In this document: piece by piece, positions 138-7,062 of the stretch
Numbering within the stretch: the first letter of the stretch is position 1
How the letters are laid out: each line of letters opens with the position of its first letter
Source: Candidatus Nitrosopelagicus sp.
GTDB lineage: Archaea > Thermoproteota > Nitrososphaeria > Nitrososphaerales > Nitrosopumilaceae
NCBI GenBank assembly: GCA_028345095.1
Contig: JAOMCQ010000003.1
Coordinates: 1 to 64,000 of the forward strand
DNA length: 64,000 nt
Direction of reading: 5' to 3'
Program-made: the position numbers and the translations under genes
Notes under the pieces: model-generated
Told to the model about the DNA's origin: nothing
Databases searched by the model: none
What the model saw: the letters and a program-made list of their open reading frames with translations, nothing else

Positions 138-355
138 GTCTTTTATCCACTTTTTGATAAATGTTCTATCTTTGAGAAATTTTTGACAATTTATGTAGCA
201 AATTTACGCCCCAAAAGTACTAAATTTGTTCTAGTAATAGTAAATGTATTACTAGTATAGAAAATGCAAAAATTGGAATCGCCACAGAGTATGGTAAACC
301 CTATTTCAAACTATCCAAAATTTTCAAAGAATTATCTATTCCATTTCATTCAATA

Positions 356-901
356 TTGCCTAGTGAAATTGATGATTTTGATGGCGACCTAATAATTACT
401 ACTGAAAAAGAGGCTCCAAAACAAATCTCAATGCCAATGTTATTTGATGAAATTATTAGTAAAGAACCAATAGTTGTAAAGGGAATAATTACAAAAATGC
501 TTAATTCATCAACTAATTCAAGTAAGCTGGTTTTAGGAATCGATCCTGGAGAAAGAATTGGAGTTTCTGTAACATATCTGGAAAATGAGATTGCAAGAGC
601 ATTTTTTGTTTCATTTGATAAATTAATTCATTATTTGATTTCCATTTTAGCAGAATTACCTGCAGCTAGAAAAATTGTTAAAATTGGAAATGGTGATATG
701 AAAACTGCTAACAGAATTCTTCAAATGTTAAACCTAAAATTTTGTTCCAAATTTGAAATTGAATTTGTTGATGAATCAAGTACCTCACTTAAAATTAAAA
801 ATCATAATCAACGTGGAAAACGAGATATGTTATCTGCACAATTCATTTCACAACGAAGTGGAATTCCAAAATCTATTTTACCACTTTCAATTACCGGTTA
901 G
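356..901 (+). CDS. RuvC/RNase H-fold-like conserved archaeal protein; 5' end uncertain
   Basis: Motif LVLGIDPGERIGVSV resembles RuvC-like nuclease strand 1; frame is open back to ~224 without a canonical start. Confidence 0.55.
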   Translation: MPSEIDDFDGDLIITTEKEAPKQISMPMLFDEIISKEPIVVKGIITKMLNSSTNSSKLVLGIDPGERIGVSVTYLENEIARAFFVSFDKLIHYLISILAELPAARKIVKIGNGDMKTANRILQMLNLKFCSKFEIEFVDESSTSLKIKNHNQRGKRDMLSAQFISQRSGIPKSILPLSITG

Positions 902-4468: not shown

Positions 4469-5686
4469 TTATTTCTGTAATTTTTCTGATGTCTTAATTT
4501 CTTTTGAAATAAATAATCTATACCAAATCTCAAGTGCTAATAAACCTAGAAATTTATTTACAATTCTAGAATCAAGTTCATCTCGATTTATGTATTTTTT
4601 GATCCATTCTGAATTAATTAATCCTGCATTCACTATTTTAGCATCGTCTAAATAGTACTTACAAATTTTTTGTCCATAAGAATCCCATAAGTTTTTTGTA
4701 TTTACAGAAAAACCTTGTTTTTTCTTAGATACTAAATGTCTAATATTATATTTATCAAGTAATTCTAATAAAAGTAATTTTCCAGTATTTGTAGATGGAT
4801 TATATTTTAATTCATTAGGTAGTTTGCATGCAAATTTAATTAGTTTTTGATTAAGCATTGGTGTTATATTTTTTATTTTAAAATAATCATGAAATTTTGC
4901 ATATAATGGCAACATATTATAAAGTAATTTACCATTAAAGTCTGCTAACATAACTTGAGATAATATTGGCAATGAATTATCAAAATATACTTCTAAAATT
5001 TGATAAATATTATTCCAATCAAATTTTAAATTTCTATTAAATATTAATTCTTGATCTGTAACCCAATCTCTTTCATGACAATTAAGATATGCAATAATTT
5101 TTTCATTTGTAGAAGAATTATCATTTACTTTCTCCAAAAATTTTTTATATCGAAATGTATATCCTCCAAATAACTCATCTCCTCCATCACCTGATAGAAA
5201 TATGTTTGACAATGATTTAGCTTTTTTAGCAATATGATACCAATGTAAATCCCAAAATGGAAGTTTTACAATACTAATCATTTTAGGTAATTCTTCCAAA
5301 AAATTATCTACATACACTAAATTATGATTTGTCTCAAATTTCTCAGAAATTTTTTTTGCAGAAACAGTTTCATCAACACTGTCTGAAAATTTTACTGAAA
5401 TTGACTCGATTTCATTATGCGGATATACCTGACGTAAAATCGCTAAAACAAGAGTGGAATCTACGCCTGAGCTAAGTGAAATGGATATTTTCTTTTCGTT
5501 TCCAATCTCCTTTTTTATTGTCTCTTTAATGGAATCTTCAATAAAGCCGATCGAGTTAGAATTTGATTTTTCTTCATGAAATTTTTCTGCTTCAAGTTTT
5601 GGAAATATTGTATCTTGATTAGGTGCATAACGTAATGTGAGAATATGCTTTATTGTTTCTAATTGTTGTTTAGTAATACTTGTTAT
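4469..5686 (-). CDS. Asparagine synthase-related protein (synthetase domain only), non-canonical start
   Basis: Track ORF 4469-5317 extends in frame to 5686: ITSITKQQLETIKHILTLRYAPNQDTIF...ISISLSSGVDSTLVLAIL (PP-loop SGGVDS-like) ...FLSGDGGDELFGGY; no ATG/GTG/TTG upstream of 5317. Confidence 0.75.
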   Translation of the reverse strand: MTSITKQQLETIKHILTLRYAPNQDTIFPKLEAEKFHEEKSNSNSIGFIEDSIKETIKKEIGNEKKISISLSSGVDSTLVLAILRQVYPHNEIESISVKFSDSVDETVSAKKISEKFETNHNLVYVDNFLEELPKMISIVKLPFWDLHWYHIAKKAKSLSNIFLSGDGGDELFGGYTFRYKKFLEKVNDNSSTNEKIIAYLNCHERDWVTDQELIFNRNLKFDWNNIYQILEVYFDNSLPILSQVMLADFNGKLLYNMLPLYAKFHDYFKIKNITPMLNQKLIKFACKLPNELKYNPSTNTGKLLLLELLDKYNIRHLVSKKKQGFSVNTKNLWDSYGQKICKYYLDDAKIVNAGLINSEWIKKYINRDELDSRIVNKFLGLLALEIWYRLFISKEIKTSEKLQK

Positions 5687-7062
5687 TTTTCACCACGTCC
5701 AATTCCTCTGAAAATAATCCCATTTGATTTTGCGCTTTTTGGATTAATTTTTCCAGTACAGTCAATTACTATTGGCTTGTTCATTGAAGTAGCGATTAAT
5801 TGCAGATCTAATTCCTCAAATTCTTTATGACCTGTTATTATTATTACTGCATCAGAGTCCACTAGTGCATGCTGTATTGATTTCTCAATTTTATAACCAA
5901 AGACATTTTCTGAATTAAAATATGGATCAAAAATCTTTAACTTAGCATTTTTTTCATTTAATAATTTAATTATTTGTTCAGATGGTGCAATTTGTATATC
6001 GTGAACATTAGGTTTGTATGATATACCTAACAGTGTAATAATACAATTATCTAATTTCATATTTGATTCAGACAAAGCATCTTCTAGTAAATTGATAACA
6101 TGTTTTGGCATATTTTCATTAATTTTTCTTGCTTCTTGTACAATTTTTAGAAAATTTTTATCAATTTTCCTTGATGAATTAAGGTATTGATATGAATTGA
6201 CGGGTAAACATGGTCCACCAACACCAGGTCCTGGAAAATGTGCTTGAAAATTATACTTTCGTTTTGCAGCTTCAATTACAGTATGTGTATCAATACCTAG
6301 TTTTTCAAATAATAATGCTAATTCATTAACAAATGCAATGTTAATATCACGAAATACATTTGTTGTTAATTTTACAGCATTTGCAGTTTTACAGTTTGGC
6401 ATTGGAATTAACTCTACATTAAAAACATGTGTATACAACGCGGATACTATCGGAGAAATTTTTTCATCTAATGAACCAACTAATCTAGGTAATTTCTGAA
6501 AATCTTTCATAATTTCTCCTGGATTTGCTGTTTCAGGACATACTGCAAGATGAAAATCAATTCCAGATTTTAAAGATTTTTCTGGACCTTCAATACTATG
6601 AAGTAATTCAGTTTCAATAAACCCAGGTTCAACAGTACTTTCAACAATTACAATTTGACCATTAGAAAGTAATGAATTCAAACTTTTACCCACAGTTAAC
6701 AATGCAGTGTAATCTGGAATATTTTCATTATTCATAGGAGTTGGTAATGAAAGTAATATTACATCACATTTTGGTATTGCATTTGAAATATCTGTAGTTG
6801 CAGATAATTTTCTATTAGAAATTACCTTATCAAAAATTTTATCAAATCCAGGCTCATCTTTTAGTGGATAATCGTTAGAATTGATCATTTCTACTAATTT
6901 TGCATTAATATCTATGCCAATAGTCTCAAAATCTGAATTTGCAAAACATAATGCTGTTGGCAACCCAATTCTGCCTATTCCTATAACCCCAATTTTTAAG
7001 GAATGATTTTCTAAGCAATCTTTAATCTCAGAACTATCTAATTGTGAAAGATTTGTTTGCAA
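5683..7062 (-). CDS. Nucleotide sugar dehydrogenase (UDP-N-acetylmannosaminuronate/UDP-glucose dehydrogenase family)
   Basis: 459 aa; KIGVIGIGRIGLPTAL, VESTVEPGF, PGPGVGGPCLPVNSY, LLGISYKPNVHDI. Confidence 0.9.
   Translation of the reverse strand: MQTNLSQLDSSEIKDCLENHSLKIGVIGIGRIGLPTALCFANSDFETIGIDINAKLVEMINSNDYPLKDEPGFDKIFDKVISNRKLSATTDISNAIPKCDVILLSLPTPMNNENIPDYTALLTVGKSLNSLLSNGQIVIVESTVEPGFIETELLHSIEGPEKSLKSGIDFHLAVCPETANPGEIMKDFQKLPRLVGSLDEKISPIVSALYTHVFNVELIPMPNCKTANAVKLTTNVFRDINIAFVNELALLFEKLGIDTHTVIEAAKRKYNFQAHFPGPGVGGPCLPVNSYQYLNSSRKIDKNFLKIVQEARKINENMPKHVINLLEDALSESNMKLDNCIITLLGISYKPNVHDIQIAPSEQIIKLLNEKNAKLKIFDPYFNSENVFGYKIEKSIQHALVDSDAVIIITGHKEFEELDLQLIATSMNKPIVIDCTGKINPKSAKSNGIIFRGIGRGEK

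Follow-up and report, generated by a model that had tools for sequence, protein, structure and literature searches.

The window, a stretch of 64,000 nucleotides from the genome of a Candidatus Nitrosopelagicus species (G000), contains on its minus strand a gene for a nucleotide-sugar dehydrogenase (5683-7062; TIGR03026, E = 5.4e-108, 361 bits at a cut-off of 190). The 3' end of this gene overlaps with a gene for an asparagine-synthase-like, ATP-dependent amide synthetase (4469-5686, minus strand), in the following named synthase. The dehydrogenase frame ends with GGA CGT GGT GAA AAA TAA. Its TAA stop codon (5683-5685) lies within an ATAA at 5686-5683, where it shares nucleotides with the proposed AUA start codon of the synthase (5684-5686) in a 4-nt overlap. 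The minus-strand letters at 5700-5681 are GGACGTGGTGAAAAATAACA; a longer reading near 5700 gives GGACGTGGTGAAAAATAACAAG. Four nucleotides ahead of the ATA is located a GGTG (5691-5694), which resembles a Shine-Dalgarno (SD) sequence and may function as one. The Gly-Arg-Gly codons of the dehydrogenase further contain a GTG (5694-5696), which is the usual synthase start in relatives; here, the synthase frame is +1 from this codon. The synthase frame is bounded upstream by an in-frame TGA (5690-5692), continues with AAA ATA ACA AGT ATT ACT AAA CAA CAA TTA and is open as far as 4469.

In this open frame of 406 codons (minus strand, 5689-4469), the first ATG, GTG or TTG is GTG5317, which is located behind the PP-loop SLSSGVDSTLV, in agreement with a first-pass annotation of the sequence. 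The synthase thus has 124 start-free 5' codons; the runners-up in a census of 264 predicted genes on 21 stretches of the same genome have 61, 54 and 44. Compared to the related locus L002, the region upstream of GTG5317 shows a pS of 0.59 and a pN of 0.29. Judged by these values, it is therefore a coding region under purifying selection, and the earlier view that GTG5317 is not the real start can be maintained. Purifying selection extends along the whole frame (dN/dS of approximately 0.27 to L002 over 397 codons without stops), and the active-site motifs are unbroken. These values, and the fact that the arrangement is common to three separate genomes, argue against a sequencing error or a decaying gene. 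Although the genome is a draft (66% complete) that contains another frameshift-split gene, and a degraded synthase copy occurs in G022 and apparently another in G191, we regard this explanation as very improbable. The split gene (G000:C23:64330-65833) is located just outside the window; its motifs suggest an aminopeptidase-like protein encoded in two frames, and the complete relative G025 possesses a single intact frame of 501 codons. The split is due to a sequencing error, a frameshift or decay.

A profile search assigned residues 51-390 of the synthase to Asn_synthase (PF00733, E = 9.7e-38). No GATase or class-II glutaminase domain was found in the frame, which starts at most 16 codons before an LTLRY motif. 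The NCBIfam scores are all far below the curated cut-offs: the best match, TIGR03108 (XrtA/PEP-CTERM amidotransferase), reached 94.2 bits at a cut-off of 816.9, and TIGR01536 (glutamine-hydrolysing asparagine synthase) 93.3 bits at a cut-off of 267.1. By sequence, the relatives in the PDB are AsnB and human ASNS. For an AF2 model (pLDDT 87.6, pTM 0.88), the best PDB folds were ASNS, carbapenam synthetase, AsnB and beta-lactam synthetase, with modest TM-scores. The synthase family comprises approximately 69 proteins from Nitrosopumilaceae and is present in 63 of 250 genomes; its members have a length of about 400 aa throughout (405 aa for the window's synthase if counted from ATA5686), possess the N-terminal ILTLRY motif and lack a glutaminase domain. 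The previously noted absence of the Cys-Gly N-terminal glutaminase domain is thus a property of the family. As every relative is equally long and domain-free, we can exclude that such a domain is joined on via a frameshift. Two synthase copies are interrupted by stop codons, namely L020 (G022:C5) and, apparently, L081 (G191:C3); the gene may therefore be under loss in some lineages.

The dehydrogenase gene is located directly upstream of the synthase gene in 59 of 74 fetched loci, of which 54 remained once duplicates were removed; as a rule, the synthase gene overlaps the dehydrogenase 3' end. The dehydrogenases of these coupled loci end in Arg-Gly-Leu/Ile-Gly-Arg-Gly. At 44 of the 54 loci, among them that of the near relative L003, the synthase occupies a different frame and mostly starts at the GTG within the Gly-Arg-Gly codons. 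The other frame, in which the start can overlap the stop, was found at nine loci. The codon at offset -1 is ATG at L039 and L042, TTG at L050 and L074 (NTGA in all four), and ATA at L001 (the window), L002 (G018) and L036 (G266); at the other two loci, the start lies further downstream. Among the approximately 69 loci of the family, only the three with ATA lack an ATG, GTG or TTG before the ILTLRY motif, and L036 stems from a different genus. All three carry CGTGGTG-N4-ATAAC, with equal spacing between GGTG and ATA, and the distance from the ATA to the LTLRY motif is 15, 15 and 13 codons, which is inside the family range. The ATA is the sole upstream near-cognate codon whose position, overlapping the stop, matches across the three start-less loci. 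As a control, genes of this genome ending in TAA were inspected: an ATA occurs at offset -1 in 167 of 420 (40%). With this background, three of three would be expected by chance at approximately 6%, and the coincidence at the junctions is therefore suggestive, not decisive.

The presence of the GTG at all three loci, with the synthase frame at +1 from it in each case, could indicate a start at this ancestral codon within the dehydrogenase (5696-5694) followed by a programmed +1 frameshift. However, the GTG is forced by the Gly-Arg-Gly codons, which makes its presence uninformative, and the ATAAC position is better conserved. Furthermore, the GTG frame shuts after 8, 5 and 10 codons with no common slippery site, and the codons preceding its stop (TAC, AAC and TCC) do not re-pair in +1. 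This route is improbable. A -1 frameshift at GAA AAA TAA would generate a dehydrogenase-synthase fusion; the synthase frame is indeed the -1 frame of the dehydrogenase, and in the window AAA 5688-5686 could slip onto AAA 5689-5687. At the remaining two loci, which read GGC TTA TAA and GGA ATA TAA, slipping breaks the pairing, and a fused form was not seen among the relatives, making this the least credible way into the frame. In the absence of a slippery site common to the loci, entry by slippage was rejected. An open frame of 796 codons in G065 was also discarded as a dehydrogenase-synthase fusion; it is a GC-rich read-through.

A different near-cognate start, either ATT5677 or an ATA or ATT immediately before the LTLRY motif, is unlikely as well. 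These codons differ from ATG by one base, and uppS of the genus probably starts at an ATT (see below). However, ATT5677 is replaced by CTT in L002 and has no matching place in L036, and the late ATA and ATT codons specify an Ile that is conserved in the region of the motif; starting there, the N-terminus would be shorter than that of nearly all relatives. ATA5686 is therefore supported as the best start candidate, and AUA initiation is the most likely mode of synthase translation. The first-pass annotation, which had placed the start at the dehydrogenase stop, is strengthened by the ATAA in two further genomes, by the ATG (two loci) and TTG (two loci) at the same offset in relatives, and by an ABC ATPase gene of the same genome in which ATG has become ATA.

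How the ATAA junction arose is less clear-cut. It had been proposed that a single G-to-A change converted ATGA to ATAA. The occurrence of ATGA (L039, L042) or TTGA at the same offset is in accordance with this part of the proposal; against it stands that most relatives, including L003, use the GTG in another frame and that the ATGA loci do not group as sisters with the ATA loci. In the protein tree, the three ATA loci fall into a small clade (SH-aLRT 87) that also contains L003 (GTG) as well as L004 and L006 (both ATG and not coupled). Parsimony, with three changes needed for the three ATA rows, is compatible with a single origin of ATA as well as with several. Descent from ATGA is possible, and a frame-changing indel after which the ATA was taken into use explains the data as well.

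In order to compare start codons genome-wide, 876 kb of the window genome were stitched and compared with the complete relative G025, yielding 742 orthologous pairs of at least 100 codons. Apart from a shadow frame on the antisense strand, a single gene with a frameshift and cases in which the 5' leader was short or unclear, a canonical start was lost in G000 and kept in G025 for only two genes, the synthase and one ABC ATPase. The latter, a LolD/MacB-like protein (L104, G000:C13, 5224-5928), has GAA ATA TCT GAT right after an in-frame TGA and GGAGG, the upstream layout being GGAGG-CGATGAGAA-ATA. The start position is occupied by ATG in 13 and by CTG in seven (L126-L132) relatives of the genus; ATA occurs in one draft genome, that of the window. 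Proposed AUA positions thus alternate with other start codons among orthologues: ATA/ATG/CTG in the ABC ATPase, ATA/TTG in the gene at window position 257 described below, and ATA/ATG/TTG at offset -1 of the synthase. Between G000 and G025, 60% of the internal ATA codons at aligned Ile positions stay ATA.

Two further genes are without a canonical start at the 5' end in both G000 and G025. The first is carA (L098, G000:C7, 7875-9020), in which no canonical start precedes the conserved domain and a TATA-like TTTTAAA is located upstream. It scored 436 bits with TIGR01368 (cut-off 307), and this match already starts 12 residues ahead of the first canonical ATG. For carA and uppS, relatives were compared by means of pattern searches. 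In 16 of 16 matched genomes, the carA pattern GAGGGTCACA-ATA-ACTA was found by a search that left the ATA codon free, and GAGGGTCACAATAACTA was identical in all 16. The second gene (257-901, plus strand) encodes a conserved protein with no Pfam or NCBIfam family, which 102 of the 121 family genomes possess. The frame opens at 224, the proposed AUA start is at 257-259, and the first canonical start, TTG356, follows 33 codons past ATA257. Conservation begins at ATA257 and family-wide homology at residues 1-5; a start at TTG356 would therefore truncate the conserved protein. The codon at this position is ATA in 18 genomes of the genus and TTG in G023, and codons 2-5 vary. It is thus likely that ATA257 is the start of this gene. 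For uppS (L229 13137-13949; G000:C31:33137-33949), whose conserved N-terminal extension has no canonical start, an AUA start was considered and dropped, as an ATT after AGGTGG fits better (15 of 15 genomes). Translation of uppS probably starts at this ATT; the case is a weak one, because an ordinary ATG precedes the main domain. When a degenerate pattern was searched for throughout the family beyond the genus, most matches were due to chance.

Apparently, it is the genus, and not the synthase gene in particular, that tolerates non-canonical starts. With somewhat less confidence than we place in the synthase start itself, we consider AUA, together with CUG and AUU, to be a regular and conserved start codon for several genes of the genus, including carA. 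Start selection would then be relaxed compared to other archaea, and standard gene callers would truncate or lose such genes.

Several lines of published evidence bear on initiation at AUA. Huber et al. (2019, PMC6728339) demonstrated strict coupling at overlapping stop/start pairs with 4-nt overlaps in Haloferax. In bacterial tests, a mismatch at the third base of the start codon was the only one tolerated at all (PMC10158994). An E. coli rpoS allele with ATG changed to ATA still produced RpoS, although the level was reduced up to 5-fold (PMC12864459); according to work cited there, AUA is a weak start in E. coli, with up to 1% of the AUG level. On the other hand, the archaeal factor aIF1 has been described to discriminate against non-canonical starts (PMC8211752).

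The synthase gene is real and is probably translated from the AUA at 5686-5684 by coupling to termination of the dehydrogenase; its product would be an ammonia-dependent uronate amide synthetase. A ribosome that ends on the UAA of the dehydrogenase would reinitiate at the overlapping AUA, aided by the GGUG four bases upstream; coupled reinitiation of this kind would favour a weak start at the synthase. A dedicated initiator tRNA with a UAU anticodon was not found in G025, which encodes four CAU tRNAs, one of them with initiator sequence features. The AUA would therefore be read by the ordinary initiator tRNA (CAU), the third-base mismatch being tolerated. The predicted outcome is that less synthase is made than dehydrogenase.

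With respect to function, the gene context points to a uronate instead of aspartate as acceptor. The synthase would adenylate the carboxylate of a uronic acid, or of a uronyl glycan, provided by the dehydrogenase, and the activated uronate would react with free ammonia to form the amide. Our best guess of a uronamide synthetase using free ammonia is based on the coupling to a uronate-forming dehydrogenase in a surface-glycan cluster, on the carboxylate-activating synthetase domain and on the lack of a separate class-II glutaminase. A standalone class-II glutaminase was not found in nine genomes, in which such domains occurred only within enzymes of 480-604 aa, and was rejected as a partner; in the 66% complete G000, no class-II glutaminase domain was found at all. 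The earlier suggestion that ammonia is needed as the donor is thus plausible. Alternatively, a class-I glutaminase or another partner may supply the nitrogen, or the synthase may join an amino acid instead of ammonia; the latter is considered because threonine-bearing uronates occur in methanogen glycans.

AUA is established as a natural start codon in mitochondria. For archaea, a literature search on archaea, bacteria and Thaumarchaeota, mostly outside subscription journals, did not find natural AUA starts described, which is weak evidence for novelty; the one archaeal hit was an ATG-to-ATA change made as a laboratory mutation in Halobacterium nadA (PMC11834397). If AUA starts are indeed conserved in this abundant marine genus, archaeal start selection, which relies on aIF1 and aIF2 in the absence of IF3, would tolerate a mismatch at the third base under natural conditions, and truncated or missing annotations would be explained. 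Furthermore, the coupling of a sugar dehydrogenase to an amide synthetase that lacks a glutaminase domain suggests that ammonia oxidisers amidate surface glycans directly with ammonia.

The synthase shares with E. coli AsnB (1CT9) and human ASNS the SSGVDS PP-loop, SGDGGDELFGGY (SGEGSDEVFGGY in AsnB) and the K-Q-GFS motifs. In contrast to AsnB, it lacks the glutaminase domain, contains an Asp in place of the first Glu of the SGEGSDE motif and has a sugar dehydrogenase as partner. The surface-glycan gene context resembles that of TIGR03108 and other AsnB-like amidotransferases of polysaccharide clusters, which, however, possess the glutaminase domain. The junction itself is comparable to known overlapping stop/start pairs with termination-reinitiation (PMC6728339) in being archaeal and in having a 4-nt overlap and an SD-like stretch in the upstream gene; it differs in that the start would be AUA and not AUG, with AUAA instead of AUGA. 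The AUU of infC is a natural non-AUG start in bacteria. It has in common with the ATG-to-ATA allele of E. coli rpoS (PMC12864459) and with the start proposed here a third-base change of AUG that leaves initiation reduced but usable, whereas the AUA described here is conserved across species and belongs to an archaeon without IF3.
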